DNA from: Siphonodentalium dalli
Lineage: Eukaryota > Mollusca > Scaphopoda > Gadilida > Siphonodentaliidae
DNA: 64,000 nt
Assembly (NCBI GenBank): GCA_032622095.1
Contig: CP136064.1
Coordinates: forward strand, 133,865,129 to 133,929,128
Direction: 5' to 3'
The position numbers and the translations under genes were made by a program. The notes under the pieces were generated by a model that saw only the letters and a program-made list of their open reading frames with translations, was not told the DNA's origin and did not search any database. Numbering within the stretch: position 1 is the stretch's first letter; every line of letters begins with the position of its first letter. This document shows, piece after piece, positions 31,918-64,000 of this stretch.

Positions 31918-31989
31918 GTCGAGTTTGATGCAAAAATATCACCGTGGGACGGGGAAATACGAATGCGGTGAACGATGTTTGTGTTTATT
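31918..31989 (-). repeat. Satellite-derived fragment between two retroelement pieces
   Basis: GCAAAAATATCACCGTGGGA, then CGGGGAAATACGAATG, is a diverged piece of the satellite. It abuts the end of the reverse transcriptase homology, so an open frame across the join reads satellite as protein. Confidence 0.75.
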
Positions 31990-32508
31990 GGTCGGATAAA
32001 TGTATAATGTATTTTTTCAAGCGTTACTCTGCATAGCTTGTATCTGTGTTTACGTACTAGATTTACTCGACTCCATGCTTTGTCAAGCATAGATCTGATG
32101 TGGATACCCCAAGAGCCCATGTTGTCGAAAGTAAGTCCCAGATGTTTATGGCTGTCAACCTCAACAATTGTCGCGGTTCCCATGGTCAAATGTGGATGAT
32201 ATACTGGTGTTTCTTTCCTGGAGATTAAGAGAGATTCCGTTTTCAGGGGATTGAATTTTACAAGCCATTCTGATGCCCAACACATGAGAGTTTCGAGGTC
32301 ATCGTTGATTAGTTTTGCGGCCATGGTGGGGTCTTCGATGGTAAGAAATAGAGAAGTGTCATCAGCAAATAGACAAATGTTGCACCGTATATTTTCGGTT
32401 ATATCATTAATATAAATTAAAAACAGAAGTGGGCCTAATACTGAGCCTTGCGGCACACCTGCTGTTACATCTTGTAGTTCCGAACGTGTGCCGTCTATGA
32501 CAACCTGT
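31990..32508 (-). pseudogene. Non-LTR retrotransposon reverse transcriptase fragment (Jockey/CR1-like)
   Basis: The minus strand encodes about 173 residues of the palm-to-thumb region of a non-LTR reverse transcriptase. Visible motifs, in order: AGVPQGSVLGPLLFLIYIND (fingers/palm), LFADDTSLF with the catalytic Asp pair, then WLVKFNPLKTESL and HLGLTFD of the palm/thumb boundary, followed by KAWSRVNLVRK and FIRP. A full enzyme would add an N-terminal endonuclease and several hundred more residues; here both ends are missing. The frame is open from 32,508 with no initiator, so it is an internal fragment. After FIRP the frame runs into satellite sequence and stops at 31,893. Such enzymes copy element RNA at the nicked target; this piece cannot. 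Jockey versus CR1 assignment is uncertain. Confidence 0.88.
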
Positions 32509-33060
32509 TTTGATCTTGATTATGGTCAATAAAATGCTAAAATGATGCCGAGAAGATGTTGATCTAACATTTTATGCAAAAATATCACCGTGGGACGGGG
32601 AAATATGAATGTGATGAATGATGTTTTGGAGTAAGCAATATTTAATTACGAACAGAACATGTAATACAAGACTAAAAGCCTTTTATCAAATGAGGTTGTT
32701 GTTTACCATTTCGTTCTGCAATTTCCTAAGCTGTTTCAACTTCCGTCCCATTAGCGAAACAAATTGTTTTAATCTTGATTATGGTCAATAAAATGCTACA
32801 CATATGTCGAGAAAATGTTATTCTAATATTATGTACAGAAATATCGTCATGGGACGGCGGCAAAATATGAATGCATTTATGGTCTACATGTTCGTTCTGC
32901 CACTACCGCGGCCGTTCTGCGTTTTACCCATCGACGAAACAAGTTCTTTTAAACTAGATTAAAATGCTACACTGATGTCGTGAATATATAAATCTAACAT
33001 ATGTCAAGAATAGTCGTCATAGGACGGCGAAATATGAATGAATTTGTTGTTTTGTAATTA
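32509..33060 (-). repeat. Decayed satellite-related repeats
   Basis: Several reverse-orientation units with CTTGATTATGGTCAATAAAA, GTCGAGAA, GGGACGG and GTTCTGC landmarks and numerous indels. Confidence 0.78.
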
Positions 33061-33674: not shown

Positions 33675-34122
33675 GAGTTCTTTAACACAGTCTCAACCCA
33701 TCTAATACCGTCCCATCCCATCTAATACCGTCCCATCTAGTTCTGCAATTTCCAAAGGTTGTTCTGCGTTTTGCAGCTGCTATCCCATCAGCGAAAAAAG
33801 TTGTTTTAATCTTTAATGGTCATGACGTCGAAAAGATGTTAGCTGTTCTGCGTTTTCTAATACCGTCCCATCCCAATTATGGTCAATAAAATGGGATCAC
33901 CAATAAAATGCTGCACTGATGACCATACAGAGCCATTTTGGTGCTGCTACATGCTGTATTATTGATAAACAGCAAGTTTAGGGGTCTATCTTAGCTGTTC
34001 TGCGTTTTCTAATACCGTCCCATCCTATCTAATACCGTCCCATCCCGTTCTGCAATTTCCAAAGGTTTCGTCCCATCAGCGAAAAAAAACATGTTTTAAT
34101 CTTGATTATGGTCATTAAAATG
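33675..34122 (-). repeat. Right arm of inverted repeat
   Basis: Reverse complement of 29,722-30,170, starting GAGTTCTTTAACAC. Inside this boundary the two sides are unrelated (GGTACCGTATATA on the left, AGAACAGAAAGATGG read from the right). The spacer between arms is 3,504 bp. Confidence 0.92.
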
Positions 34123-35619
34123 CTTCAGTGTTGTCGAAAAGATGTTAATCTAACATTTTATGTAAAAATATCGCCGCGGGACGGGGAAATGTGAATGCAT
34201 GGGGTGATTTGGTGTTTGTTTACATTTTCGTTCTGCAATTTCGCTTCCGTCCCATCGACGAAAAAAGTTGTTTTCATCTTGATTATGGTCAATAAAATGG
34301 GATCACCAATAAAATGCTGCACTGATGACCATATAGAGCCATTTTGGTGCTGCTACATGCTGTATTATTGCTAAACAGCAAGTTTAGGGGTCTATCTTAG
34401 CTGTTCTGCGTTTTCTAATACCGTCCCATCCTATCTAATACCGTCCCATCCCGTTCTGCAATTTCGCTTCCGTCCCATCAGCGAAAAAAAACATGTTTTC
34501 ATCTTGATAATGGTCAATAAAATGTTACAATGATGTCGAGAAGATGTTAATCTAACATTTTATGTAAAAATATCGCCGCGGGACGGGGAAATGTGAATGC
34601 ATGGGGTGATTTGGTGTTTGTTTACATTTTCGTTCTGCAATTTCGCTTCCGTCCCATCAGCGAAAAAAAACATGTTTTCATCTTGATTATGGTCAATAAA
34701 ATGGGATCACCAATAAAATGCTGCACTGATGACCATATAGAGCCATTTTGGTGCTGCTACATGCTGTATTATTGCTAAACGGCAAGTTTAGGGGTCTATC
34801 TTAGCTGTTCTGCGTTTTCTAATACCGTCCCATCCTATCTAATACCGTCCCATCCCGTTCTGCAATTTCGCTTCCGTCCCATCAGCGAAAAAAAACATGT
34901 TTTCATCTTGATTATGGTCATTAAAATGTTACAATGATGTCGAGAAGATGTTAATCTAACATTTTATGTAAAAATATCGCCGCGGGATGGTGAAATGTGA
35001 ATGCATGGGGTGATTTGGTGTTTGTTTACATTTTCGTTCTGCAATTTCGCTTCCGTCCCATCGACGAAAAAAGTTGTTTTCATCTTGATTATGGTCAATA
35101 AAATGCAACAGTGATGTCGAAAAGATGTTAATCTAACATTTTATGCAAAAATATCGCCGCGGGACGGGGAAATATGAATGCATGGGGTGAGTTGGTGTTT
35201 GTTTACATTTTCGTTCTGCAATTTCCTACGGTTGTTCTGCGCTTTAATACCGTTCCGTCCCATCAGCGAATAAAAACATGTTTTAATCTTGATTATGGTC
35301 ATTAAAATGCTACAATGATGTCGAGAAGATGTTAATCTAACATTTTATGTAAAAATATCGCCGCGGGACGGGGAAATGTGAATGCATGGGATGATTTGGT
35401 GTTTGTTTACATTTTCGTTCTGCAATTTCGCTTCCGTCCCATCGACGAAAAAAGTTGTTTTCATCTTGATTATGGTCAATAAAATGCTACAGTGATGTCG
35501 AAAAGATGTTAATCTAACATTTTATGCAAACATATCGCCGCGGGACGGGGAAATATGAATGCATGGGGTGATTTGGTGTTTGTTTACATTTTCGTTCTGC
35601 AATTTCGCTTCCGTCCCAT

Positions 35620-35957
35620 TACTATGGGGGGTTTGGGAAACTTTCCCGGGAAGATTTGAAAGGGGCGGAACCCCTCTCCTACAACCCACTGTTGAATTTA
35701 ATTTGGAACATGTAATGGTGTTACATTAACATGAGATTGGTGAGGGTGAAATGAAAATGATCTATTTTTTTTTTGATTTCTTGGCCTTCTTTTTGGTTCT
35801 ATGTTCGGATGATGTTGCTTGTTGTTGTTGTTGAGCTTCCAGTATTTCCAGTATTTCCTCCCTTGCTTTCGCCCGTATGTCTCTATCTTTTTCTCTTTGA
35901 ACATCCCTTTCTTTTTGTTCTTGATCATGCTGTTGTTGCCATATCGCATGTTCTGCC
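35620..35957 (-). mobile_element. Small insertion with GGGGCGGAACCCC tail
   Basis: Satellite sequence is interrupted between CTTCCGTCCCA and ATTAAAATGCTTCAG. The inserted ~338 bp starts with a segment resembling 31,845-31,890 (AGGGGCGGAACCCCTC and TCCTACAACCCA). Read on the minus strand, it carries a protein C-terminus followed by this tail, as a 5'-truncated retroposed copy would. I see no target duplication or A tail, so the class is open. Confidence 0.55.
35762..35956 (-). pseudogene. Charged coiled-coil protein C-terminal fragment, unknown function
   Basis: About 64 residues on the minus strand. The fragment begins right at the insertion junction, so its N-terminus is lost; the apparent start codon is created by flanking satellite bases. 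The composition is strongly coding-like: a Gln/Asp/Glu/Lys/Arg-rich heptad-like stretch (QEQKERDVQREKDRDIRAKA), REEILEILEAQ, a run of five Gln, then a basic tail ending in lysines before the stop. Similar tails occur in transposon-encoded DNA-binding or accessory proteins, but I do not recognise the family. An overlapping minus-strand frame at 35,698-35,949 is its shadow. Confidence 0.45.
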
Positions 35958-36669
35958 ATTAAAATGCTTCAGTGTTGTCGAAAAGATGTTAATCTAACAT
36001 TTTATGTAAAAATATCGCCGCGGGACGGGGAAATGTGAATGCATGGGGTGATTTGGTGTTTGTTTACATTTTCGTTCTGCAATTTCGCTTCCGTCCCATC
36101 GACGAAAAAAGTTGTTTTCATCTTGATTATGGTCAATAAAATGGGATCACCAATAAAATGCTGCACTGATGACCATATAGAGCCATTTTGGTGCTGCTAC
36201 ATGCTGTATTATTGCTAAACAGCAAGTTTATGGGTCTATCTTAGCTAAATTGGTGTTTGTTTACATTTTCGTTCTGCAATTTCCTACGGTTGTTCTGCGC
36301 TTTAATACCGTTCCGTCCCATCAGCGAATAAAAACATGTTTTAATCTTGATTATGGTCATTAAAATGCTACAATGATGTCGAGAAGATGTTAATCTAACA
36401 TTTTATGTAAAAATATCGCCGCGGGACGGGGAAATGTGAATGCATGGGATGATTTGGTGTTTGTTTACATTTTCGTTCTGCAATTTCGCTTCCGTCCCAT
36501 CGACGAAAAAAGTTGTTTTCATCTTGATTATGGTCAATAAAATGCTACAGTGATGTCGAAAAGATGTTAATCTAACATTTTATGCAAAAATATCGCCGCG
36601 GGACGGGGAAATATGAATGCATGGGGTGATTTGGTGTTTGTTTACATTTTCGTTCTGCAATTTCCTACG

Positions 36670-40647: not shown

Positions 40648-40800
40648 GTTACTTTCGATTTGCTAGTTAATACATATTCCGGCACAATTATCGCGTGTTT
40701 TCTGGTTTCCGCTTTCGAGAAATCGGCGAGGTTTGCCGAACAATGACGAGGGAATACGAATATACTACAACAACAATGGCGGCACTTCCGTTTTTCGTGA
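40648..40800 (+). repeat. 153-bp direct repeat, copy 1
   Basis: GTTACTTTCGATTTGCTAGT through CCGTTTTTCGTGA; essentially identical to 41,600-41,752 (offset 952). The surrounding 40,435-41,851 has no gene I can support. Confidence 0.9.
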
Positions 40801-41599: not shown

Positions 41600-41752
41600 G
41601 TTACTTTCGATTTGCTAGTTAATACATATTCCGGCACAATTATCGCGTGTTTTCTGGTTTCCGCTTTCGAGAAATCGGCGAGGTTTGCCGAACAATGACG
41701 AGGGAATACGAATATACTACAACAACAATGGCGGCACTTCCGTTTTTCGTGA
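41600..41752 (+). repeat. 153-bp direct repeat, copy 2
   Basis: Near-identical to 40,648-40,800. Flanks differ immediately outside, so it is either a local duplication or two ends of a lost element. Confidence 0.9.
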
Positions 41753-44120: not shown

Positions 44121-45039
44121 GACCAGACAAATGGGCAGTGCCTAACTAAACATTTGCGCATGTGCCTAATAACACATTAACGCATGCCATAAAAACATTA
44201 TTCAATGCGCAAATGTCGGTGCTGTAATAAGATTATGCTACATTCGCGCATGCCATATATATTCATATATTGAGTAATAATTAACGAACTGCAACATTTT
44301 TGTCCCATCACCATTTATTCGGGCTTTGGCTTTGGACCGACAAGTTAAACTTGGCTGGGTTAGACATATGTTTGTCATTAATTAGTTTTTTTTTTTAAAC
44401 TTGATACTATTTTTTTTCAAGTTGTCATCATATTTTTTTTTTTTTTTTTTTTTAGTATATACGAACATCAATGAAAACAATTACATACATCAAATGCACA
44501 ATCTTATTATAATAGCGCCGACAATTCACTTTTATACAAAGTATTATCAAAGAAAATGATTTCTGTATTTAATTTAATTGTTCTAGGTTTACGTATATGT
44601 ATGACTAAATGATATCACATTGAAACATTATTCAATGCGCAAATGTCGGTGCTATATAATAAGATTGTTATACGAGAACAAAACATGTAGAATATATTAT
44701 CATAATCTGTTCAGTTATTTTGTTGAAGTCTCTGCTTTGCCGCGATTTCTAATAGCCAGAAAAACCGAAGCATGAATGATCAAATTGTCTGGCGCCATGT
44801 ATGTTAACTGGGTCTGTATATGGGGCCATTCTCAGGTAACCGGGACCAAAGCAACAACAAAAAATCGAAAAATTAATTTTCGTAAACAGTTGTCAACATT
44901 ATTTATTTGTGAAGTTGGGTATCCATTGTACATTTAACAGAAGTGGTTAACATATGGATGATATATTCCTATAAAATATGACTCCATGAAGATGGTACCC
45001 GCATTTTCAGTGTATATATATTTGCCACATTTATGGCCA
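44121..45039. other. No gene; short direct repeats and poly-T
   Basis: A 31-bp direct repeat (AAACATTATTCAATGCGCAA and following bases) sits at 44,193-44,223 and 44,623-44,653. A run of 21 T lies at 44,433-44,453. Confidence 0.7.
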
Positions 45040-46170
45040 TATATCCACTCAAGATATACATATACACTGCAACCATAACCATAGAGTAACTCCCGGTATG
45101 CATATACACATCGCCAATGGTCATACAGCCCTTGTATATATACAAATGTCCCGCACACATGGCCATTCACACACTCCAGGCTTGAATATACTCCCCACTC
45201 AAGACAATTCAGCACTCGTAGCATACCCATACACAACATTTGTGGTCATACAATCACTCCTTGTTTACCAACTTCACCTCACCATTGGCCATACGATCAC
45301 TCCCTTTGTACATATTGACCACACCCATATATCCAATAAATATATACAATGTACACATACACACCCCACCAATGCCTATCATAGAATCACTCCAGGTATA
45401 CATCGACACCTCACCATTGACCCTACATACCTTCTAGATATAGCAATACCGCGCATAGTACCTCACCATTGGCCATACAGTCACTCGTGTATACATTTTC
45501 TTCGCACCCATGACCATATACCCACTCAAGATATACATATATACACCCCACTCATGACCATAAGGTCAATCCATGTATACATATACACCTCACCAATGAA
45601 TATACCAATATCACGCACGACCATTCGTACACTCCAGATTTACATATATACATCGCCCATGACAATTCAGCCACTCGATGTATACTCAATCACCCCATTC
45701 ATGATCATACAGCTATTCTCTGTATACATATACATCCACCAATGATAATACAGCCACGGCAGAGATGATTATACATCACATATACAACCATGACCACAAG
45801 GACACTCCATGTATACTCCAGGTATGCATATATACTTCAACAATCATTACCGTACTGTCATGCCATGTACACCTATACACATTGCACATAAGCATATATA
45901 AAATCACTGCCTATTTATTCATACACCTACAGTCCCACACGTGATCATACAGCCATCATATGTATAAATATACACCTTTCCTTGACAATAGTCACTCATG
46001 TATATCCCATGTATATCCCACACATGACCATACAGTCACTCTATATATACATAAACAACACACAGATGAACATACTGCTATTATCAGTATACACATAAAC
46101 CACTTCAATAACCATACAAATAATCCTTGTATAGCTATTCACCTCACACATGACCATACAGTCACCCCTT
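45040..46170 (+). repeat. Degenerate ~42-bp minisatellite
   Basis: Recurring theme CCATGTATACATATACACCT, then CACCCATGACCATACAGTCA. Spacing between successive CATGACCATACAG-like landmarks is about 41-45 bp, with many indels; roughly 27 copies. It keeps a long open frame on the plus strand (45,098-45,745) rich in His, Ile, Thr and Tyr that simply translates the repeat. Confidence 0.85.
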
Positions 46171-47481: not shown

Positions 47482-47521
47482 AATCTTGGTGGCGTTACCA
47501 TTTCTGACTATGGTTTTCTTG
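47482..47521 (+). mobile_element. 3' end of a Helentron-like element (5' end not found)
   Basis: Carries ATCTTGGTGGCGTTACC and ends CTATGGTTTTCTTG followed by T, the same 3' end as at 50,340, 56,997, 57,256 (reverse) and 62,860. No matching ATTACGCCACC start lies upstream in the window. Confidence 0.7.
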
Positions 47522-48025: not shown

Positions 48026-48361
48026 TCCCATAAAGGATGAATCATGTACCTTTATCCAGATTAACTGGATTAACGTACTTGGATGAATATAGAATGCTAC
48101 CATATGGCTTCTAGAAATTGTGTTTATATTGTATATTATATATCGAATAAATTATACTATATTACGCCACCGTAGTGTGGTGTTTCTAGCTTTTGGTTTT
48201 TTGATATCGCATGGTCGATCGATAATTCACTGGGTGATTGTACATTCGGCAAACCTCGTCAGATTCCGTCACCGTTTCATCGTACCGATAATTACGAGAG
48301 TACAACTAAGATTGGCACATGTGTTTACGTCACCGGTGTAATTGTGGGGACATGCTTCTAT

Positions 48362-48425
48362 TATGAAGGTTTGCTATCCCGAAGGTCCGCTATTCCGAAG
48401 GTTCTCTATTCCGAAGGTTTTTGTT
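48362..48425 (+). repeat. TTCCGAAGG short tandem repeat, cluster 1
   Basis: Three to four copies of (T/C)CCGAAGGT plus about 8 bp, inside H1. Confidence 0.8.
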
Positions 48426-48849
48426 ATTTTTAGGTTAATTCTATATTTTAAAGTATTGAGACTAATTTGAGAGGGTTCATTTTCACAAAGATTCTGTATA
48501 TGGAGTGTGCGCTCACATCCGAACTGATCATGCGCGCACACCGATACAGATACAGGAGGAAATAACTTAACTTATAACATTAAATGTGATTTTGTTTTGT
48601 TTTCGCTGGTTTTCTTGAGATTTTATGTCATTACGTGGGCCCATACCTTTGAATTCTTGGCATATACTATGAATGTTGTGGTATATATGGACCCTCCCGC
48701 ATTGGGACATGACATAGGTTCAGTTGACTTAAGTGGTGTTCTGTGTGTGCTCCAATTTGGAGTTCAATATTTTAAGGGCCAAGTTTAGAATTTTATGGGT
48801 CCATACCTTTGAACTCTGGGCATATAATATGAATATTGGGGGGCATGTC

Positions 48850-48966
48850 TCTATTCCGAAGGTTCACTATCCCGAAGGTCCACTATTCCGAAATTTCTCT
48901 GAATGTTCGCTATTCCGAAGGTTCACCAATCCGAAGGTTCGTTATTCCGAAGGTTCTGTGTTCCAA
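48850..48966 (+). repeat. TTCCGAAGG short tandem repeat, cluster 2
   Basis: About seven ~17-bp units of ATTCCGAAGGTTC(A/G)CT type; the inverted counterpart lies at 63,785-63,905. Confidence 0.85.
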
Positions 48967-49589
48967 AGATTTTTTTTATTTTAAGGTTAATTCTATATTC
49001 TAAAGTAACGAGAGGGTTCATTATCACGAAGATTCTTTTTATGAAGGAAATAACGTAAAACATTAAATGTGATTTTGTTTTGTTTTCGAGGGTTTTCTTG
49101 AGTTTAATGTCATTACGTATGACCTTATTTCTCATTACATATTCACGCCAAGGAGCCCACACAATTGCTATGTTACGATGCGATTTAATGTGATTATGTG
49201 TGACCTAATATCTCAATAATCTGAGGCAAGAGTACGCCTGCTAAAGGCGAATTATAACAGTTGGGGGTATAACGCTCAATAAATACTGGAGGCTATAACA
49301 AACTGCGCAGTATAATATCGCTGAATGGACGAGTATGAGATGAGCCTAAATGCAATTGTGACTTTGTTTAAAGGCCCACTTAATTTTGGAGTCATTAATT
49401 TTTTATAGTATATACGGTTTTAATAACAATTTATGCCATAAAATTTGAATAAACTACTATAATTCATCACCATTTGAAAGGCAGAATACTTCTATCTCCT
49501 AGTTTGAAACACCTTCAAAATACCGCGTCGTATATCTAGCAATTAGCAACCAACATGTCCTCCTCGGCTTTCCATAGAATTGAACGTAA

Positions 49590-50110
49590 TTTGATACTTA
49601 TGGGTATTTGTGTCCGGGAAGTGTTTTGAACGGGTCAAATCGTGACCCCGACCTGACCTTGACCATTAAAACTGTCAATGCAAGGTCAATTTGGGTAAAA
49701 CGGACAAATTTCGGCGAAATTTGATACCAAGGGATACTTTGGTCCGAGGAGAGTTTTGAACGGGTCAAATCGTGACATCGGCCTGACCTTGACCTTCAAT
49801 ATGGCCAATCAAATGTCAACTCGGATAAAACGGATAGATTTCGACGAAATTTGATACCTATGGGTACTTTTGTCGGGGGTGGGGTGTGTTTTGGACGGGT
49901 CAAATCATGACTCTGACTTTACCTTGACCTTCAAAATTGTTAATTAAAGGTCAAGTTGGGTAAAACGGACGGATTTCGACGAAATTTGATACCTATGGGT
50001 AGTTTTCTACGGGTGGGGGTGTTTTGGACTGGACAAATCATGACCCTGACCTGACCTTGACTTTCGAAATAGTCAATTGAAGGTCAAATCGCACCTTTCA
50101 CCGGAAAGCA
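49590..50110 (+). repeat. Four ~130-bp tandem repeats with GACCTTGACC core
   Basis: TTGATACC(T/A)A(T/A)GGGTAC-type landmarks recur at about 49,590, 49,720, 49,851 and 49,987. Each unit contains GGGTCAAATC, TGACCTTGACC and TAAAACGGA. They are internal repeats of H1. Confidence 0.9.
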
Positions 50111-50340
50111 GATGGGAAACAGCCCGGGTGAAGTCGGGCCTATCAGCTTGTGTAATAAAGAAGACAGTTTGATGAAAGTAATGTATGCCACGAGAAACGG
50201 GAAAACTTGAAATATGGAAGTACGCAAATTTCCCGCATAAAATTTGAAAGCTAGTTTATAGAATAATTGTATTATTATTTATATTTATGGCTAATAATAC
50301 GATCTTGGTGGCGTTACCATTTCTGACTATGGTTTTCTTG

Positions 50341-52869
50341 TTTATATAATGTCTTTGGTTTATCATTTAACGGACTGTGGTGATGACACTACACGTCTAC
50401 ATCATTAGTTTTGAAGAGAAGTCATTTCGGCCAATTTGGCCGGTTACTTCATGTGACTTTTTCATCTGACGTGTGTGTCGGATAATTGATCTGGAGGATT
50501 TATGTAAATGTTAGCCCAAACTACATTTCCAAGTAACGATGGTTTTGTTGTTTATTTTGAGGAATAATACCGCGTTAGATGAATTCAGCCCAAATATGTT
50601 AACAGTTGTCGTGTCAAACATTCGGCAGTAGGTTAGCGTTATTTAGTATTTGTGGATGTCCTTTAACATGGGGAAAATAGACTACTGCGCTTGAACGAGC
50701 ATGTGAATTTGTCGTTTTTAATGTACAGCAACTTGATAATCAATAACAGAGGCATTCTCTGTCAAATAAGGTCGCTCTATTTACGGTATTAATTGCGGAA
50801 CTTTCTAAAGTAAACTACGCGTAAACGGATACATACGGTAAATTATAGAATGTGCCGGAATCGGCCTAATCGCCCCATGGCCAACTCGCCCAGTCGACGT
50901 TTGTCAATTCGGTACCTACTATAACATGTACCCGAGTCCGATTCGGAATAAAAGATGTATACGGGTGTTATATAGCGTTTGGTCCGTTGTTTCTCAATGA
51001 ATATTATTGAAATTTGGTGTATATGTCCGGGCTGGGACATGGAATACAACAACGTTTGAATTGTTTTTAAATTTACAAATTTGTTGATTTTATTCAATTG
51101 TTTTTCGTTCTGAAAACACACTATAAAGTGTATATAATATAATAACGAACACGAGACATACATAATTTATAAACTGTTAACAAAAGATATCAAATTCAAT
51201 ACATGACAAAGATGACTCAGTGGACTTTATAAAGTGAACATAAAAACATTGAGGTAAGAATCTTTTTAAGGAATGCAACTTTATTTAATGATAATAAACA
51301 CATAAATTAAAATAACAAACATGAGACATACATGATTTATAAACTGTTAACAAAAGATATCAAACTCAATACATGACAAAGATGACTCAGTGAAGTTTAT
51401 AAAGTGAACATAAAAATATTAAGGTAAGAATCTTTTTAAGCATTACTAAACCGTTTAGCACAGACCACAGTCCACTTCACTCATCCGATCATCACCAAAC
51501 TTCATATTTATCTTGATATTGATCTATCAGATGAGAGCTATCAAATATTTTTTTAATTTCATAGGAAAAAATGGTCGCCAGCGGCCATATTGCATTTACG
51601 TTATATTTTATCGCGTCATGTCGATATCTAGTATTACTTAGAAATTTCACCTTTCCAGATTCATAATTGCTCCATTGACTGTAACAGATGAAATTATTCC
51701 CCTCTTCGGATAGAGTGTCACTGAAACTTTATTTTGTCAGACTGTCTGTATAATCACTGATTATATATGGCAATAATCTGTAATAAGATGTAGCACTATT
51801 TTATTTTATATTTACATGCAGTGCTGTTTTTATACATCAATTCTAATCCCCCTAGATCATCATGTGATCGATCATACATCGCGCGAGGACCTGGTTGAAT
51901 TAAGGGGGGTTTTATGGATCACTTCTGTCCTCAAGCTAGATTATACTTATGACATTTAATGGCATGTTGCTAACGTGGAGGGTTAGATATGCTTGAGAAA
52001 CCACCACTCTTTAATTCACACCAAGTTCTCAGCTGTCATGTTCGGATATTAGAACCCATAGCCATGATATATGGTTTATTTTGTGTATACTAGTAATATA
52101 GTTATTTTCAGTACCTTTATATACCAGTACTGTGTATAACAATGCATATAAATTAATCCATGTATACATGTATATTGATTCAACGGATTCAGTGGTTTTG
52201 TCCATCAGTCTATCAAATTTGCGGGGAAAACATGGCCACAAGCAGTACACCCTGCTAAATTTCGAATTTGAATCAATTGGCGCACCCTGCAGCCAGCTTT
52301 TATTGGAGAACTTTTTCTTATGTGGATATTTTGGGTCACCGCTAGATGTGAGCCATATTTTGTTCTCAAACTGTCCTTGTGAAGACATCACTGCCAGCGG
52401 TGATCTTCAATTTTACTATTTTTATGGCTAAATAATTTGGTTGATCCTACAGACGACACCCTTGTCCGATCGTCATCAGATTCCACAATTATCTTCTGGA
52501 TAACCAGGGTGAGAGTAATCTAATTTTCCCGAATTTCGTTAAAAAACATTACCACAGGCAGCAATTTGGTATCTTACTCTTTGATCCTCTTTTGCATGAC
52601 TGAATTGTTTAGCAACTGTACAGACATATCCCTCATCTGGTTTTTATATACATGTATATCTCTTCATGCGGATAGCCAGTATTACGTAGGTACTTCAACT
52701 TTCTGCATTCCTGTCATCATTTGAAATATAAAAATTTACCTGATACATGCACCCTTCAAAATTTGTTTCGTCGTATCTATTTTAATGACCCGTATGGTAA
52801 TATTGATACAGATATATTTGTCAAACATTTCTTTGTACAATATACAGGTATTTAGTTTGTAACTAAATC
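50341..52869. other. No gene; a 130-bp local tandem duplication
   Basis: 51,141-51,270 is repeated at 51,311-51,440 (offset 170) with about ten differences (shared ACAAAGATGACTCAGTG). Open frames at 50,843-51,163 and 52,029-52,391 (minus) are AT-rich, overlap opposite-strand frames and match no family. Confidence 0.65.
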
Positions 52870-52889
52870 TAGAAATATATAATAGTAGC

Positions 52890-53470
52890 TCGTGGACCCC
52901 ACTTCGTCCGGGATGTTCCCCTCTGATTTTCGGAGAAATGCGCGATTTAACCTTGAATTGACTATTTTAAAGGTGAAGGTCATGTCGGGGTCACGATTTG
53001 ACCCGTCCAAAACACTCCCCGGACAAAAGTCACGACAAAAGTACCCGTCGAAATCCGCCCGGCTTTACCCGATTTGACCTTGAATTGACAAGTTTGAATG
53101 TCAAGATCAGGTCAGGGTCATAATTTGACCCACCCGAAACACTCCTGGGACAAAAGTAACAGTAGGTATTATATTTCGTTGAAATACTTCGTTTTACCAG
53201 ATTTGACCTTGAATTGATCTTTTTGAATGTCAAAGTCAGGTCGGGATCAAGATTTGACCCGTCCAAATAGTCCAGAAACATGCCTACATCAGCACGTTCG
53301 AGAACATGGTCCCACGTGAAATTGGACCCGTCAATATTGCTCCCGGGATCGAAATAGTCCTACACACAAATTTTTAGTCGGATCGGTCAATGTCCAGAAA
53401 CATGCCTATGAGCGAGGTCAAGTTGACACGTTAAATACCAAATCCGAGTCGGATCAGTCGAGCAGTGTTA
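52890..53470 (-). repeat. Diverged GACCTTGACC-type tandem repeats
   Basis: Three or more older ~120-130-bp units related to those of H1, in reverse orientation (TTTGACCTTGAATTGAC at about 53,080 and 53,200). They are preceded by CTTCGTCCGGGATGTTCCCC, which parallels CTTCACCCGGGCTGTTTCCC at 57,463 in H2. A CACATACATACA-type stretch follows near 53,490-53,525. An open frame at 53,030-53,281 (minus) is repeat translation. Confidence 0.75.
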
Positions 53471-55437
53471 GAGTCTATAACACATACACACATGCATTCA
53501 TGCATACACACATACATACAGACAGGTGTTCCAAAATGTATAATCGATAGCTACAACAATTCTATGGTAGGTATAGTTCACGGCCGACCTGATGCATGCA
53601 TCTTAGTTTTCTTGTTATTACGCCACCTAGTGTGGTGTTTCTAGCATTTGGTTTTTTTATATCGCATGGAGTACAGGGCGAATGTATTCTTGGAGATAGT
53701 TTGTACCTTACTCAATCGTACCGATATAATCACGTAGATGCCGAAATTGTAAAGTTAACGCCAGCGGTGTATAATACGTTTATGAAAATATGATAAATCC
53801 TATCGATAGAGTCAGGACAGGCTCAAATTGTAAACTTAAAGTCACCGGTGTAATAATATGTTGTTGAAAATATAAATAATCTGATAGCCTGAAAATATTG
53901 TATAACCTATTGGGAGCCCATAATAAATGGGAATAACCTATTGGGAGCCCCTGCATGTAGTGAACTGAATTGTGGGTATTTTATGGAGATTGTTTGTACC
54001 TTACTGAATCGTACCGATATAATCACGTAGATGCCGAAGTTGTAAAGTTAACGCCACTGGTGTATAATATGTTTATGATAAATCGTATCGATAGAGTGAG
54101 GACAGGCTCAAATTGTAAACTTAAAGTCGAAAATATAAATAATCTGATAGCCTGAAAATATTGTATAACCTGTTGGGAGCCCCTGGTGTAGTGAACTGAA
54201 TTATGGGTAATTTTAATTGGAGTGCGCATGTCTGTTTTTTTTGTAGTAACGGCCATCTTTTATTTTCTGTAATTATGGTAAGAGTTTATGGTTTAATTTA
54301 TTTATTATTTAAGTTTGTTTCAATTTTTGAATGGTTTTATGTTAACCCGATAATTTGTATTTTGTAAAGAATAAAATTGTTTGAAGAAAAATGGCGAATT
54401 TCCAAGTTCTGAGTGTCAGCTCGATAGTGAGACTGAGGCTGTGACGGTGTGAGTGACTGAGAGTCTCAAGTTAGTTTATTTACAGTTGTGTTCCGAGTAT
54501 TTTTTGTAGTCAAATATTAATGAAATACGCTTTGTTTATATATACTAATTTGCTTATTTATAGAAACGTGTAATATTAATTTGAAAGTTATTTCGATAGA
54601 CTATTTGTTTTTAGTTGAAGATAAAACAAATTTGGAAAACAAATATTATAACCCATTGAGAGCCTCGTGAAGTGTATTGTGGGTATTTTAATATAATTGC
54701 GCATGCGCAGTCTATATGCGTTCTTTTGGGGAAATTCGCTATTTTGGTTAAGTGAAACAATGGTATGAGTTCAATGTTTGTTTGTATATAAGAAAGTATA
54801 TTGAATTTTGGAGGCCGACAATTGTATCTATTTGAAGATTAAAAGTTGCTTGTGTGTATTTAGCTGTGCATGGTTCGTTAATTAGGCCAGCCTATTGTCA
54901 TATTAGAACGTCTCCAATAACATACAACCTCTCTGCAGTTAACATTGTGAATTTGGCAACAGTCCAAGCAGGCCCTCTAATGGAGCACTGTGAATTTGGC
55001 AACAGTCCAAGACACGTGGGGTATAATAACTGAACACCTGTGGCCAACTTGATCTCCAGAATGTTTTTAAGTGGAAGGGACAGTGTAGTGGGGTGGGGTG
55101 GAAGTTAGATTTTGAGTGTGTATGATTCACAACTTTTGTAAAAAAAAGTTAATGCACATGTAGTTGGAAATTTCATACATTATTACACTACAACATAAAG
55201 GTTAAAATACATGGTTACCATTGCCTGGTATCCCAACTAGTAATTATTGTCCCCATTATGATGGGGACGGGGATCGAATGATGGAGGTATTTTGAGGGGG
55301 TGGGAGTCACAACTGTTATAAAGAATTTTAACAGTTGGAAATTTCATACATGATTACACTAACTTTTTGTCCCCATTTATTTTACTGCTGTCTTGTTTGT
55401 TACTGTATTCCTGATATGGAAATAATAAAGAGCATTT

Positions 55438-56997
55438 ATTACGCCACCTGTGGTGTATCTAGCTGCTGAGATTTTGATATTGCGTGGTGGACAGGGCGAA
55501 TGCATTGTGGGGCTTTTATTTATAGAGTTGGAAATTCCGTTTATTTAAAAGTCGGAACTACGCGACCAGTAGGCCAAGTCCAGTAAAACGGTTCGTTATA
55601 GGTGCTGGTTGTTATTGTTATTTTAACGGAATTCTGAGTTGGTCATTCGCGAAACCAATATATTTTATATTCTATAATTAAAACCGTGGGTATATAATAT
55701 ATGATCCTCTTTATGGATATTGTAGGAAGGTAAATTTAGCTAAAGCGGTGGGATATCTTGCAAGACAACACATTTCGGTTTGCGCTATAACCGCTCAATG
55801 TTTTAAGGTGTTACACAACGTCTGATAAAAAGAGTTCTATCTGGAATATTCACACTATTTTTTCAGAGAACATGCATAGAGTAAACATAGTCCTATCGGA
55901 CTATCGTAAAGTAGTTCCGTTTAATTCGGGATTAATTAACCCTCAGACTGCCGAAACTGCCGACAATAAATTCGCTTGTTCGTGTCCCCCGAAAATCAAA
56001 CTTGCCTGTTTAGAGGTCCCATTTTCGTGGCTAATGGTGATAGAATCACAATTTTTCAGTCAAGTTCATGGATAAATTACATTACACTTAATCGGCTTAT
56101 GTCCGCGGCCATAAACCTGCGTTTTGATAACAATTTATTTGAGACAAACTGTTGCGCGGGTATCAGTCGGCGCTTATCGGTTGAAGTTATTATGATCGTG
56201 CAGCCTGCGCGTGCAACAAGTGTTCAAATACAACAGAAGAAAAAAATACTATGTCAAATAAATAACGTGATCAATGGACAGACAAGTTTCATTTCCGTGG
56301 GACACGAAAAAGCGAATTTAATGTCGTCAGTTTCGGCAGTCTGAGGGGTTTAATTAATCTCCTTTACGATATCCCGATAGGACTATATTTACACTATGTT
56401 CTCTGAAAAAAAATGGTGTGAATATTCCCGATAGAACTATTTTTATCAGACGTTTTGTAACACATTAAAACATTGAGCAGTTAGCGCAATTTTCTGGAAT
56501 TTCGGACTATTTCGTCTATAAAAATACGATGAGCAACTGAAAATGTTTTTCAACATTCTGGAAGGGGTAGATGTCCAGGTATATATGTTTAAAATTTCAC
56601 GCATAAACTATGACAGATAACAAAGTTATAATTAGTTTTATAGGCCCACCATAAATCCCCTATAATAAACGCATGCCTCCGTAAGCACATGGCTTTGCTG
56701 TGGATGCTTTCGTTCCCAGCATGCATCATTCTCGCTATCTGTAAAATGTCTATGAACAATGGCTGTGCCACGCACTCTTAGCTTTGATCCGCATTTAGAA
56801 GCATTCTGGTGTGGCGAATGAGAAACCTGCAGTAATTTATAAGCCGTAGTTCATTGTAATAATTTGAAGAATTACTTATCTTAACGGAATTCTGAGGCGG
56901 TCCATTCATGTAACCAATATATTTTATATTATGATTTATATTTATGGCTAATAATATGATCTTGGTGGCGTTACCATTTCTGACTATGGTTTTCTTG
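55438..56997 (+). mobile_element. Inner element E2 of J1
   Basis: Has its own 5' end ATTACGCCACCTGTGGTGTA and uses the 3' end at 56,997. It is 1,560 bp long and preceded by T. It contains the foldback arms at 55,782-56,487. Confidence 0.55.
55782..56487. repeat. Foldback inverted repeat in J1
   Basis: Arms of about 190-200 bp (55,782-55,989 and 56,297-56,487) are imperfect complements; both read CTCAATGTTTTAA and AACGTCTGATAAAAA inward and CAGACTGCCGAAACTG further in. The loop is ~300 bp. A 122-codon open frame (55,976-56,344) covers the loop. Compared with J2 it shows three replacement and one silent change, so there is no sign of protein selection. Confidence 0.85.
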
Positions 56998-57255
56998 TGT
57001 ATGGTAGCGAAGGTGCGTGTTTATTCATGAGTACCTATATTGTTGACATTGAGGCTCGCGTTGATAATTAGCAAGCCAGTCCGGATACAGGTATTGCACA
57101 ACACCCTGGTGACATGTTGAAATCGAAAACGGGCCCTGCACTCGCCTTCTACGAAGTATTCTGATCCCAACGCCCAGACAACGACTGAGGGGAGTTAAAC
57201 AAAGTCAAAACAACACAGTAATCATTGTGTAATTAACAAAGAGACAGAGTATATA
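56998..57255. other. Short gap between J1 and H2, nothing recognised
   Basis: About 258 bp of unique sequence between the 3' ends of two elements facing each other. Confidence 0.6.
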
Positions 57256-57486
57256 CAAGAAAACCATAGTCAGAAATGGTAACGCCACCAAGATCGTATT
57301 ATTAGCCATAAATATAAATAATAATACAATTATTCTATAAACTAGCTTTCAAATTTTATGCGGGAAATTTGCGTACTTCCATATTTCAAGTTTTCCCGTT
57401 TCTCGTGGCATACATTACTTTCATCAAACTGTCTTCTTTATTACACAAGCTGATAGGCCCGACTTCACCCGGGCTGTTTCCCATCT

Positions 57487-58010
57487 GCTTTCCGGTGAAA
57501 GGTGCGATTTGACCTTCAATTGACTATTTCGAAAGTCAAGGTCAGTTCAGGGTCATGATTTGTCCAGTCCAAAACACCCCCACCCGTAGAAAACTACCCA
57601 TAGGTATCAAATTTCGTCGAAATCCGTCCGTTTTACCCAACTTGACCTTTAATTAACAATTTTGAAGGTCAAGGTAAGGTCAGAGTCATGATTTGACCCG
57701 TCCAAAACACCCCCCCCCCCGACAAAAGTACCCATAGGTATCAAATTTCGTCGAAATCTATCCGTTTTATCCGAGTTGACCTTTGATTGGCCATATTGAA
57801 GGTCAAGGTCAGGCCGAGGTCACGATTTGACCCGTTCAAAACTCTCCTCGGACCAAAGTATCCCTAGGTATCAAATTTCGCCGAAATTTGTCCGTTTTAC
57901 CCAAATTGACCTTGCATTGACAGTTTTAATGGTCAAGGTCAGGTCGGGGTCACGATTTGACCCGTTCAAAACACTTCCCGGACACAAATACCCATAAGTA
58001 TCAAATTACG
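57487..58010 (-). repeat. Tandem ~130-bp GACCTTGACC repeats of H2
   Basis: Reverse complement of 49,590-50,110, same unit number, with small length changes in a C run near 57,709. Confidence 0.88.
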
Positions 58011-58567
58011 TTCAATTCTATGGAAAGCCGAGGAGGACATGTTGGTTGCTAATTGCTAGATATACGACGCGGTATTTTGAAGGTGTTTCAAACTAGGAGA
58101 TAGAAGTATTCTGCCTTTCAAATGGTGATGAATTATAGTAGTTTATTCAAATTTTATGGCATAAATTGTTATTAAAACCGTATATACTATAAAAAATTAA
58201 TGACTCGAAAATTAAGTGGGCCTTTAAACAAAGTCACAATTGCATTTAGGCTCATCTCATACTCGTCCATTCAGCGATATTCTACTGCGCAGTTTGTTAT
58301 AGCCTCCAGTATTTATTGAGCGTTATACCCCCAACTGTTATAATTCGCCTTTAGCAGGCGTACTCTTGCCTCAGATTATTGAGATATTAGGTCACACATA
58401 ATCACATTAAATCGCATCGTAACATAGCAATTGTGTGGGCTCCTTGTCGTGAATATGTAATGAGAAATAAGGTCATACGTAATGACATTAAACTCAAGAA
58501 AACCCTCGAAAACAAAACAAAATCACATTTAATGTTTTACGTTATTTCCTTCATAAAAAGAATCTTC

Positions 58568-58576
58568 GTGATAATG
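58568..58576. other. Target site duplication, left (GTGATAATG)
   Basis: Identical 9 bp at 63,724-63,732. The uninterrupted H1 shows the site once (CATTATCAC on the plus strand at 49,019-49,027). Confidence 0.93.
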
Positions 58577-58615
58577 GGGTACCTCGAAACAGTGCGCGGA
58601 ACTGCGCGGTACAAA
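58577..58615 (+). repeat. Left TIR of the 5.1-kb element
   Basis: Shares CCTCGAAACAGTGCGCGGAA and GCGCGGTACAAA with the right end; shorter by an internal ~20 bp. Confidence 0.88.
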
Positions 58616-59968
58616 CAAAACAGTTATTATGCACGGGGAGTTGATTTAAAACATGCATATTAATGAAATATAGTAGTAGAAGGTCTTCAGTTACGAATTT
58701 GCAAGATCATTTTAACGTTTTATTAGAGAGAGTGAGTGGTAGAATCTACCGCGCACTGTTTCGAGAAAAGTTTACTGCGCTATATCTTCCGCGCATTGTT
58801 TCGAGAAAAGCTTAAGTACTGCGCAGTTGTTACCAGAAAACTTAATGCGCGATGTCGGATTAATAGCCACAGTTACGTGATAAATTATATATTATAAAAC
58901 AATTTTCTAAAACTCCCATCAGCTTTTATCCGGCAGACTTAATTGTCAAAATGAATTTACCGGTGCCATGATATATGGCACCTCTGTGCATATATGACAC
59001 CTCTTATTACGCCACCTAGTGTGGTGTTACTTGCATTTGTTTTTTTTATATCACATGGAGTACAGGGCGAATGTATTCTTGGAGATTGTTTGTACCTTAC
59101 TCAATCGTACCGATATAATCACGTAGATGCCGAAATTGTAAAGTTAACGCCAGCGGTGTATAATACGTTTATGAAAATATGATAAATCCTATCGATAGAG
59201 TCAGGACAGGCTCAAATTGTAAACTTAAAGTCACCGGTGTAATAATATGTTGTTGAAAATATAAATAATCTGATAGCCTGAAAATATTGTATAACCTATT
59301 GGGAGCCCATAATAAATGGGAATAACCTATTGGGAGCCCCTGCTGTATTTTATGGAGATTGTTTGTACCTTACTGAATCGTACCGATATAATCACGTAGA
59401 TGCCGAAGTTGTAAAGTTAACGCCACTGGTGTATAATATGTTTATGATAAATCGTATCGATAGAGTGAGGACAGGCTCAAATTGTAAACTTAAAGTCGAA
59501 AATATAAATAATCTGATAGCCTGAAAACATTGTATAACCTGTTGGGAGCCCCTGGTCTAGTGAACTGAATTATGGGTAATTTTAATTGGAGTGCGCATGT
59601 CTGTTTTTTTTGTAGTAACGGCCATCTTTTATTTTCTGCATGCGCAGTCTATATGCGTTCTTTTGGGGAAATTCGCTATTTTGGTTAAGTGAAACAATGG
59701 TATGAGTTCAATGTTTGTTTGTATATAAGAAAGTATATTGAATTTTGGAGGCCGACAATTGTATCTATTTGAAGATTAAAAGTTGCTTGTGTGTATTTAG
59801 CTGTGCATGGTTCGTTAATTAGGCCAGCCTATTGTCATATTAGAACGTCTCCAATAACATACAACCTCTCTGCAGTTAACATTGTGAATTTGGCAACAGT
59901 CCAAGCAGGCCCTCTAATGGAGCACTGTGAATTTGGCAACAGTCCAAGACACGTGGGGTATATATAGA

Positions 59969-60108
59969 ATACACACGTAGTGTTTCTGAATACCAAATTT
60001 ACACCACGAGTGGGATTGATGGTTTACCACACGAGCTTTAGCGAGTGTGGTAAATCATCAATCCCACGAGTGGTGTAAATTTGGTATTCAGAAACACTAC
60101 GTGTGTAT
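59969..60108. repeat. 140-bp near-perfect hairpin
   Basis: Arms of about 63 bp start ATACACACGTAGTGTTTCTG and pair with the reverse at 60,046-60,108. Only one mismatch is seen (GATGGTTTA versus GATGATTTA). The loop is ~13 nt. Confidence 0.95.
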
Positions 60109-60112
60109 TTTG

Positions 60113-60887
60113 TTTATACCATGACCGGTACAGGAGCAACAACTGCTATGAAATCGAAATAAACCCACTTAAATTAAGATGATTCTGTCGCACCATTCAC
60201 AATCATCCCCGTTGTGTTCCCCACACTTGGCCGTACATCGAAGTACACTATCACAGCTGATCAGGCGTATTGATACATTGAATTAGGTCAACATTCAATT
60301 GTACGAATATGGTATCATTGTAGCCAATTCACAATAAACTGTAATCATGATGAAACCGCCATAAATAAACAACATGAATATATATATGGGAATACGAATT
60401 TAATGAATATAAATATAACACATTGCGGGAACTTTTTTTTCTCCGCCGTACAGTGAACAGGAAACCACGAAAGTCATTTTGAAATCCACCGTTTGTTGTT
60501 CGAGTTTTTTACGTCTATTTCTTGAAATATATGTTCAATTTGTTGATCTGGATGTGATTTCCACGGAAATAACTGTTCGTTTTTATCGCATTAGTGAGTA
60601 TAATATTCAATTGAATCGAAAGTATCAAATTGTTTTCATCGCGAGGCGCTACATTTTAAAAATAGAGTGATTTTGATCGAGGTCATGGAAGGTTAATGAA
60701 AGGTCAACTCGGATGTAGTTCTACTATGGGTATAAACTTTAACCATTGAAATGCCATTAAAACGTGTTACCCACAGTAGAAACGTGTTACCCACGGTCGG
60801 ACTCCTGTTCACACACAGTAGGGTGTACAGCACAAATATATTATATAGCATGTTTGTACACAGTACAATAGGGAGTCATGGTATAAA
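60113..60887. mobile_element. Insertion in J2 with 13-bp inverted ends
   Basis: TTTATACCATGAC at 60,113-60,125 is the exact complement of GTCATGGTATAAA at 60,875-60,887. Together with the hairpin it fills the gap absent from J1 (which reads GGGGTATAATAACTG at 55,020-55,034). No clean target duplication. A 63-codon frame inside (60,479-60,670) matches nothing recognised. Confidence 0.55.
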
Positions 60888-61644
60888 ATAACTGAACACC
60901 TGTGGCCAACTTGATCTCCAGAATGTTTTTAAGTGGAAGGGACAGTGTAGTGGGGTGGGGGTGGAAGTTAGATTTTGAGTGTGTATGATTCACAACTTTT
61001 GTAAAAAAAAGTTAATGCACATGTAGTTGGAAATTTCATACATTATTACACTACAACATAAAGGTTAAAATACATGGTTACCATTGCCTGGTATCCCAAC
61101 TAGTAATTATTGTCCCCATTATGATGGGGACGGGGATCGAATGATGGAGGTATTTTGAGGGGGTGGGAGTCACAACTGTTATAAAGAATTTTAACAGTTG
61201 GAAATTTCATACATGATTACACTAACTTTTTGTCCCCATTTATTTTACTGCTGTCTTGTTTGTTACTGTATTCCTGATATGGAAATAATAAAGAGCATTT
61301 ATTACGCCACCTGTGGTGTATCTAGCTGCTGAGATTTTGATATTGCGTGGTGGACAGGGCGAATGCATTGTGGGGCTTTTATTTATAGAGTTGGAAATTC
61401 CGTTTATTTAAAAGTCGGAACTACGCGACCAGTAGGCCAAGTCCAGTAAAACGGTTCGTTATAGGTGCTGGTTGTTATTGTTATTTTAACGGAATTCTGA
61501 GTTGGTCATTCGCGAAACCAATATATTTTATATTCTATAATTAAAACCGTGGGTATATAATATATGATCCTCTTTATGGATATTGTAGGAAGGTAAATTT
61601 AGCTAAAGCGGTGGGATATCTTGCAAGACAACACATTTCGGTTT

Positions 61645-62350
61645 GCGCTATAACTGCTCAATGTTTTAAGGTGTTACACAACGTCTGATAAAAAGAGTTC
61701 TATCGGGAATATTCACACTATTTTTTCAGAGAACATGCATAGAGTAAACATAGTCCTATCGGACTATCGTAAAGTAGTTCCGTTTAATTCGGGATTAATT
61801 AACCCTCAGACTGCCGAAACTGCCGACAATAAATTCGCTTGTTCGTGTCCGCCGAAAATCAAACTTGCCTGTTTAGAGGTCCCATTTTCGTGGCTAATGG
61901 TGATAGAATCACAATTTTTCAGTCAAATTCATGGATAAATTACATTACACTTAATCGGCTTATGTCCGCGGCCATAAACCTGCGTTTTGATAACAATTTA
62001 TTTGAGACAAACTGTTGCGCGGGTATCAGTCGGCGCTTATCGGTTGAAGTTATTATGATCGTGCAGCCTGCGCGTGCAACAAGTGTTCAAATACAACAGA
62101 AGAAAAAAATACTATGTCAAATAAATAACGTCATCAATGGACAGACAAGTTTCATTTCCGCGGGACACGAAAAAGCGAATTTAATGTCGTCAGTTTCGGC
62201 AGTCTGAGGGGTTTAATTAATCTCCTTTACGATATCCCGATAGGACTATATTTACACTATGTTCTCTGAAAAAAAATGGTGTGAATATTCCCGATAGAAC
62301 TATTTTTATCAGACGTTTTGTAACACATTAAAACATTGAGCAGTTAGCGC
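61645..62350. repeat. Foldback inverted repeat in J2
   Basis: Counterpart of 55,782-56,487 (offset 5,863), with the same arms and loop. Confidence 0.85.
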
Positions 62351-62860
62351 AATTTTCTGGAATTTCGGACTATTTCGTCTATAAAAATACGATGAGCAAC
62401 TGAAAATGTTTTTCAACATTCTGGAAGGGGTAGATGTCCAGGTATATATGTTTAAAATTTCACGCATTAACTATGACAGATAACAAAGTTATAATTAGTT
62501 TTATAGGCCCACCATAAATCCCCTATAATAAACGCATGCCCCCGTAAGCACATGGCTTTGCTGTGGATGCTTTCGTTCCCAGCATGCATCATTCTCGCTA
62601 TCTGTAAAATGTCTATGAACAATGGCTGTGCCACGCACTCTTAGCTTTGATCCGCATTTAGAAGCATTCTGGTGTGGCGAATGAGAAACCTGCAGTAATT
62701 TATAAGCCGTAGTTCATTGTAATAATTTGAAGAATTACTTATCTTAACGGAATTCTGAGGCGGTCCATTCATGTAACCAATATATTTTATATTATGATTT
62801 ATATTTATGGCTAATAATACGATCTTGGTGGCGTTACCATTTCTGACTATGGTTTTCTTG

Positions 62861-63664
62861 TCTCTCTCTGTTGATCAGTTATTATGTCAAGTAGTCTGTC
62901 CCTCAAGTCAGGTAATTTCAATACATCAGTCTCTATTTTTATCACATTGTTTAAACCTGCACAGTTATTATTAGTCAGTTTCGATGCATAACTTTTGTGC
63001 TTCATGTGAAGAAATTGATATAGTTACAAATTGAATTATTAATCTTTCATTTTCTTTTGGTGAGGACGCAATTAGATAATATTATATAAAGCGTAATCCT
63101 ATATGCTTTTTCTGGTGTCTAAAAGATCTATTTGGCCAATTACCCAAACCGATGCACATAGCCTCAAATCGATTAAAATTTAGAAAATTATTGAATATGT
63201 AGTTTCTTACCACCCAAGGACTCCTTAATCAACTGTACATTATCACCATATGCACTTAATTTTGTTTTCTTTTGTTAATCACGTGAATATTTTTTGTAAT
63301 TTATATTTGGTTGAGTCGGACTTATATAGGTCTTCGGACCTGTTGTCTGGCTCTTTGCATATTTTATTTGCAATAAACCTATTTATACAAAAAAAGTTTC
63401 GATTTAAAAAAAAATTCCTCATATGTTTCCAAATTTATAATTTATTGTTAAAATTCCGTTCGACGTGGAAAATAATCGATCAACGATTTTGGTGGTTTTT
63501 AAATTTAAGGCGTGAGTCTAGAGTGAATACCAGGAAAGTGGCTTCCCCGGGCTTTGTTAGATTGCGTGATGGGTGTGTCAAAAAGAGAGAGAGAGTTTGG
63601 TTTTGGAGTAATTACGTTTATTCCCAAATACGATTAAAGGTACTCAATCCGATAAAACTGTTTC
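62861..63664. other. Right interior of the 5.1-kb element, no gene seen
   Basis: AT-rich sequence. The open frame at 63,250-63,828 runs through the TIR and into H2 and so cannot be an intact ancestral gene. Confidence 0.65.
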
Positions 63665-63723
63665 ATTTGTACCGCGCACTTCCGCGTAGTTCTGCGCAGT
63701 TCCGCGCACTGTTTCGAGGTGCC
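63665..63723 (-). repeat. Right TIR of the 5.1-kb element
   Basis: Inverted counterpart of 58,577-58,615, with an extra GCGCAGAACTACGCGGAA-like stretch. Confidence 0.88.
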
Positions 63724-63732
63724 GTGATAATG
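63724..63732. other. Target site duplication, right (GTGATAATG)
   Basis: Matches 58,568-58,576; H2 sequence resumes here with AACCCTCTCG. Confidence 0.93.
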
Positions 63733-63784
63733 AACCCTCTCGTTACTTTAGAATATAGAATTAACCTTAAAATAAAAAAAATCT

Positions 63785-63905
63785 TTGGAACACAGAACCT
63801 TCGGAATAACGAACCTTCGGATTGGTGAACCTTCGGAATAGCGAACATTCAGAGAAATTTCGGAATAGTGGACCTTCGGGATAGTGAACCTTCGGAATAG
63901 AGACA
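63785..63905 (-). repeat. TTCCGAAGG repeat of H2
   Basis: Reverse complement of 48,850-48,966 in H1; unit CCTTCGGAATAG. Confidence 0.85.
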
Positions 63906-64000
63906 TGCCCCCCCAATATTCATATTATATGCCCAGAGTTCAAAGGTATGGACCCATAAAATTCTAAACTTGGCCCTTAAAATATTGAACTCCAAATTGG

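Follow-up and report, generated by a model that had tools for sequence, protein, structure and literature searches.

In this report, we examine a stretch of 64,000 nucleotides from the scaphopod mollusc Siphonodentalium dalli (contig CP136064.1, positions 133,865,129 to 133,929,128 of the forward strand), which we call the window and whose own numbering we use throughout. Between position 47488 and the right edge of the window lies a group of mobile elements that carry different bodies between the same short ends. We consider it highly probable (about 0.85) that these elements form a family of non-autonomous rolling-circle transposons of the Helentron/Helitron2 type, known as HINEs. The family comprises a complete element (A), a second and interrupted copy of it (A'), two copies of a composite (J1 and J2), each made of a left part (B) and a right part (C), and an isolated 3' end (D), as follows:

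48161..50340 (+): element A, a complete HINE-like element of 2180 bp, recognised by both ends, its tandem repeats and the existence of a second copy
48161..48183 (+): 5' end of A, with ATT, the subterminal repeat ACGCCAC and its complement GTGGTGT (5' hairpin)
50307..50340 (+): 3' end of A, with the GGTGGCGT repeat, the ACCAT/ATGGT hairpin and the TTTTCTTG terminus
57256..58576 (-): 3' part of A', broken at 58576 by a nested transposon with terminal inverted repeats (TIR); 49019-50340 of A matches 58576-57256 at 99.2% over 1322 columns
63733..64000 (-): continuation of A' past the nested transposon, its 5' end lying beyond the window; 48752-49028 of A matches 64000-63723 at 99.6% over 278 columns, an alignment that includes the 9-bp duplication described below
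53617..56997 (+): J1, composite of 3381 bp with the 5' end of B, a second 5' end (that of C) at 55438 and a single 3' end
55438..56997 (+): C within J1, with its own 5' end preceded by T and a 3' end that is that of the composite
59006..62860 (+): J2, second copy of J1 at another site, with the same layout
61301..62860 (+): C within J2, 61301 being the twin of 55438
47488..47521 (+): D, a solo 3' end with a diverged body, its last 60 bp agreeing with those of the other four ends at 52-53 of 60 positions

The ends are what unites these features. The exact string ATTACGCCACC opens five 5' ends, at 48161, 53617, 55438, 59006 and 61301, where it is each time preceded by T and followed by TGTGGTGT, a string found in exact form at no other position of the window. 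When one mismatch is allowed, ATTACGCCACC has six matches in the window, while shuffled sequences give 0.97 on average and 5 at most, so that none of 100 shuffles reaches six. The string TATTACGCCACC, with up to two substitutions, has nine matches in the window, namely the five 5' ends above, 38181, and the minus-strand positions 63718, 44218 and 43183. Five identical copies of a 34-nt block form the 3' ends, at 47521, 50340, 56997, 62860 and, with minus-strand orientation, 57256; each finishes with TTTTCTTG and is followed by T, and no further copy was found in the window with up to ten substitutions. A T therefore lies outside all ten ends, while 11 bp are identical across the five 5' ends and 12 bp across the five 3' ends. 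The end positions proposed in the initial annotation are thus recovered by exact matches. Over the last 60 bp, the 3' ends agree at 52 to 60 of 60 bases in all ten pairs. According to the rule set out in PMC4067079, a HINE family shares at least 11 bp of identical subterminal inverted repeat and a subfamily at least 80% of its last 60 bp, so that, by this rule, the five 3' ends belong together. Position 38182, the sixth of the matches to ATTACGCCACC, was considered as the start of a long element that would extend to 47521, and it was dropped, since it has one mismatch, is preceded by G and lacks TGTGGTGT. Searches with degenerate patterns gave no match for the 3' end in the viral_contigs and genome_contigs collections and none for the 5' end in viral_contigs, which says little given that these hold viral and prokaryotic contigs. 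In the main text of the articles searched, five longer end strings and six satellite or repeat strings had no match, and ATTACGCCACC matched in 11 articles that were judged unrelated from their listing.

What lies between these ends differs from element to element. The 5' modules match over 54-77 bp (A and B of J1, 94%; A and B of J2, 87%; A and C, 78%; B of J1 and C, 77%), and A and J2 share 97% identity over their last 74 bp. Apart from an extension of about 40 bp to the left of the C 5' match, BLAST at an E-value of 1e-3 found no other similarity between A and J1 or J2. The earlier claim of different bodies under the same ends is therefore borne out for A and for B plus C, and in part for D. 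For the latter no 5' end was recognised, and its comparison with C gives 74 identical bases out of 96 upstream and 34 out of 34 at the terminus, which has a chance of 1.4e-4 at the upstream rate.

The interior of A is repetitive: it contains minisatellites of 16 bp, and at 49584-50087 a unit of 130 bp is repeated in tandem about 3.8 times. Approximately three reversed copies of this 130-bp repeat are also found at 52878-53267, 74-84% alike with A depending on the stretch, and they have no recognisable element ends. Within A, at 48609 and 49092 (two copies of an inner repeat), GTTTTCTTG is followed some 11-13 nt further by ATTACG, not by a full 5' end; these pairs are possibly decayed end sequences, or may be due to chance.

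J1 and J2 agree along C at 1551 of 1560 aligned bases, along the piece before C at 411 of 411, along the middle of B at 325 of 325 and along the left of B at 626 of 633 when gaps are left uncounted (95.9% when they are counted). In J2, the segment 54270-54700 of J1 is missing, and some 0.9 kb of other sequence is inserted at 59963-60883. No 3' end belonging to B was seen before C in either copy. J1 and J2 appear to be one composite that travelled as a unit, a shared movement that rolling-circle read-through predicts. On its left, the J2 insertion has a palindrome some 164 bp long (59957-60120, 89%), and the body of C contains a long inverted repeat (55780-56009 and 56278-56489, 81% alike), also present in J2.

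The two ends are related to each other by an inverted repeat that is placed asymmetrically. Its exact core of 8 bp (ACGCCACC/GGTGGCGT) starts 3 nt from the 5' terminus, and the complement lies 26 nt from the 3' terminus; with one mismatch, it extends to 9 of 10 bp. The initial annotation had placed the 3' partner 22 bases inside the element, which is right for GGTGGCGTTACC, the exact core being 26 nt in. The very termini are not inverted copies of each other (6 of 20 bases match). An inverted match of 8 bp between the first 15 and the last 40 bases arose in 122 of 20,000 random pairs. Each end also has a predicted hairpin. At the 5' end, it consists of seven pairs, one of them G-T, in all three types (A, B and C), with the stem ACGCCAC/GTGGTGT in A and B and TACGCCA/TGGTGTA, shifted by one base, in C, and with a loop of variable length; the z-scores are -2.1, -3.4 and -2.2 for the three types and the energies range from -3.4 to -4.7 kcal/mol. 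At the 3' end, the 5-bp stem ACCAT/ATGGT stands 7 nt from the terminus in all five copies (z-score -2.1), a distance that is at the edge of the range of about 8-35 bp described for HINEs. The stems show no paired changes and hence no covariation.

We then considered the insertion site. Nine junctions were taken as independent, namely the 5' junctions of A, J1, J2 and C (counted once) and the 3' junctions of D, A, A', J1 and J2. A T lies outside all nine, with a probability of about 4e-5 at the regional T frequency of 0.33. The left flanks end in CTAT, TGTT, TCTT and ATTT, the constant part being only T|T. In the three complete elements (A, J1 and J2), with the ends placed as above, the longest direct repeat between the two flanks is 1 nt, that is, one T. 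A useful comparison is provided by the nested TIR transposon that interrupts A' (58577-63723, about 5.1 kb, terminal repeat of 30 bp with one mismatch), which contains J2. It is bordered on both sides by a 9-bp duplication, GTGATAATG, and the uninterrupted A has this site once, in reverse complement; as this duplication is plainly visible, a comparable one at the HINE-like elements would have been seen. Of the insertion at TT announced in the initial annotation, the T on both sides and the absence of a visible duplication longer than 1 nt stand, as read from the flanks of the elements, and one T is constant on each side. Likewise, the longer target duplication that would speak for another mechanism was found in none of the three complete elements, again as judged from their flanks.

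As for coding content, 74 stop-to-stop open reading frames (ORFs) of at least 70 aa were listed between 29 and 64 kb, 40 of which were scanned against Pfam. Eighteen ORFs of this size overlap A (5), J1 (6) and J2 (7); the longest has 124 aa, and none matches a Pfam family at the cut-off, with weak matches being seen below it. Among the 40 scanned ORFs, no DDE transposase partner was found either. Only one scanned ORF exceeded the cut-off, a reverse transcriptase piece outside the elements (31893-32519, minus strand; RVT_1, E-value 1.5e-12). At 44990-45745, an open frame of 251 aa with many His, Ile and Thr residues runs across a degenerate repeat, and it had no Pfam match. Rfam gave no match at the gathering score, and a search under the bacterial code found no tRNA.

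Other repeats lie elsewhere in the window. A satellite array with units of about 404 bp and 97-98% matches covers positions 1-29969, almost half of the window; many of its units contain a 20-bp inner repeat, GGATGGGACGGTATTAGATA, and copies in reverse orientation are found at 33876-36664. In addition, an exact direct repeat of 153 bp occurs at 40648-40800 and 41600-41752, the two starts being about 950 bp apart.

How, then, would such elements move? An enzyme from an autonomous element elsewhere, with an HUH Rep and a helicase and perhaps with the Helentron endonuclease, would act on them in trans. It would nick beside the T at the 5' hairpin and peel off one strand, whose release would stop at the 3' hairpin and TTTTCTTG, and the strand or a circle made from it would be inserted between two Ts. 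In J1 and J2, B would have lost its own 3' end, so that replication starting from B would pass through C and stop at the 3' end of C; on this model, the lack of an own 3' end makes B and C travel together as a pair. For a reconstructed canonical Helitron, experiments described in PMC4778049 support the 3' hairpin as a terminator, its bypass to a downstream ending, and the formation of circles with joined ends. J1 and J2 fit such a terminator bypass, because no 3' end of B is seen before C and that of C, the next one downstream, ends the unit. The family is compact, and it adds a case of different bodies under one pair of ends. Moreover, a two-headed composite, with two 5' ends and one 3' end, that is apparently mobile as a unit is a prediction of the rolling-circle model in which movement starts at the 5' end and stops at the 3' end.

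Several observations weigh against assigning the family to the HINEs. The flanks are rich in T (over the next four positions, 17 of 36 bases are T), and at that rate the nine junctions out of nine have a probability of about 1e-3; just one T is constant on each side, while the mite HINEs described in PMC4067079 have at least two. Matches of 4-5 nt between the flanks (TATAT, TTGT and CTCT) appear once the ends are allowed to move by as much as 3 nt, the word and the offset differing from one element to the next. With 8 bp exact, or 9 of 10 when one mismatch is allowed, the inverted repeat is shorter than those of published HINEs, and it is nearer to the 3' end than in mite HINEs. The hairpins are of low stability, from -2 to -4.7 kcal/mol; the 3' one, at -2 kcal/mol, has an unpaired centroid, and 10 of 200 shuffled sequences fold equally well. 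The control for D is soft, since with the same lenient aligner 200 unrelated pieces of 96 bp gave a mean identity of 0.62 and a maximum of 0.76. Finally, no autonomous partner, Rep or helicase was found among the scanned ORFs. On the whole, the HINE interpretation of the initial annotation holds for the anatomy, the asymmetric inverted repeats, the hairpins, the flanking T and the tandem repeats of A, and it is weakened by the short inverted repeat and the single constant T; neither a Rep/helicase nor a DDE partner was seen among the 40 of 74 ORFs scanned between 29 and 64 kb.

Of the other explanations, the one that survives best is a subset of this assignment and narrows the branch: the elements would belong to the Helitron2 branch, with a partner devoid of the Helentron endonuclease, and their ends and movement would be nearly identical. 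In Helitron2 elements the inverted repeats are likewise asymmetric and each end has a hairpin, and PMC5148889 describes the two branches as told apart by the endonuclease and by the target, which is between TTTT and T or C for Helitron2 and TT for Helentron. Only T|T is constant here, however, and we regard a restriction to Helitron2 as possible but unlikely.

The elements could instead be non-autonomous derivatives of cut-and-paste (DDE) transposons, in which the inverted repeat would be subterminal at one end by chance. An inverted repeat is indeed present near both ends, and cut-and-paste transposons commonly give rise to deletion derivatives that keep the same ends. The termini nevertheless match at only 6 of 20 bases, and the flank duplication, with the ends placed as above, does not exceed 1 nt in three elements out of three, against 9 nt at the nested TIR transposon, which makes this explanation very improbable. 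We give equally little credence to the idea that J1 and J2 arose by segmental duplication rather than by two insertions of a composite. The two are 2 kb apart, their C parts differ as little as stated above, and their left 200-bp flanks agree at 126 of 170 aligned bases (0.74 in a lenient global alignment), near the top of the control, which consists of unrelated 96-bp pieces (200, mean 0.62, maximum 0.76) that are shorter than the flanks compared. On the other hand, the right flanks agree at only 100 of 177 bases, BLAST identity ends 2 nt before the 5' end (at TT) and 1 nt past the 3' end (at T), and J2 lies inside the TIR transposon while J1 lies outside it. Tyrosine-recombinase elements of the Crypton type, or others inserting without long duplications, would account for the asymmetric ends and for the little or no duplication, but the subterminal repeats, the nested 5' hairpin and the 3' hairpin before the terminus are the layout published for HINEs; Cryptons are not known to have subterminal repeats and hairpins of this type, and we hold this the most improbable of the explanations to which we give any weight. 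A canonical Helitron (Helitron1, with 5'-TC, 3'-CTRR and an A/T site) is ruled out by the 5'-ATTACG, the CTTG-3' and the T on both sides.

If the elements are HINEs, one further feature could bear on the way they move, and it concerns the left flank of J1:

53606..53616 (+): GTTTTCTTG then TT, nine bases of the 3' terminus of the family, immediately left of the J1 5' end

Of 50,000 random flanks, a single one had a match of this length that ended no more than 3 nt from the junction; four flanks were examined, and the other three have none. The window has nine copies of GTTTTCTTG, five of which belong to the 3' ends, and the idea of a footprint arose after inspection of the sequence. J1 might record an intermediate with joined ends, either a circle or a head-to-tail array, from which the 3' end of the circle or of the preceding tandem copy would have been carried in, and this on a composite in which two 5' ends are already used with one 3' end. 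We consider this doubtful, and an old neighbouring element whose other parts are gone would explain GTTTTCTTG beside J1 too. If it were true, natural copies would keep footprints of the joined-end step, and joined ends have been reported for the reconstructed bat Helitron and for Fusarium elements (PMC4778049, PMC5148889).

Compared with published HINEs by layout, the family looks new within a known kind. The closest descriptions are those of the oyster Crassostrea gigas, in which eleven Cg_HINEs are reported with subterminal inverted repeats (subTIRs) normally of 11-12 bp, a complementary inverted repeat, a 3' palindrome and central tandem repeats (PMC7492417). As in Cg_HINEs, a 5' subTIR is accompanied by a complementary inverted repeat (1-12 nt away in the oyster), a 3' subTIR is followed by a palindrome, and the right module spans about 60 bp; the tandem repeats between the modules are also shared (PMC7492417). 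The oyster elements are described as inserting in TT or T-rich sites with no duplication found, which the flanks here resemble, and no autonomous partner could be linked to them either (PMC7492417). Going by description rather than sequence, the difference lies in the subTIR, of 11-12 bp in the oyster and 8 bp exact (9 of 10) here. The HINE-Mo and DINE-1 elements described in PMC4067079 are similar in that their subterminal inverted repeats begin 2-4 nt inside the 5' end, their 3' palindrome measures 5-10 bp, a T flanks them on both sides and the target is not modified, and the inverted repeat nested in the 5' subTIR is as in DINE-1. By the same description, the subTIR of mite HINEs is 12-15 bp long and lies 38-60 nt from the 3' end, whereas it is 8 bp long and 26 nt away here. 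The FoHeli elements of Fusarium oxysporum, which belong to Helitron2, also have asymmetric terminal inverted repeats, the 3' one being about 20-40 bp inside; hairpins are present at both ends of FoHeli1 and FoHeli2, as here, and joined ends are reported (PMC5148889). Unlike the present elements, however, FoHeli are autonomous, have other termini and insert at a site given as TNAT and A in the text of that article and as TNAT and T in a figure legend. Bivalves are described as having a relatively high content of rolling-circle elements (PMC10294476), and their Pearl, DTC84 and MgE elements carry tandem repeats between conserved flanks, a likeness to A that we draw from their description; Pearl has been re-classed as a non-autonomous Helentron, and DTC84 and MgE are called of comparable architecture (PMC7492417).

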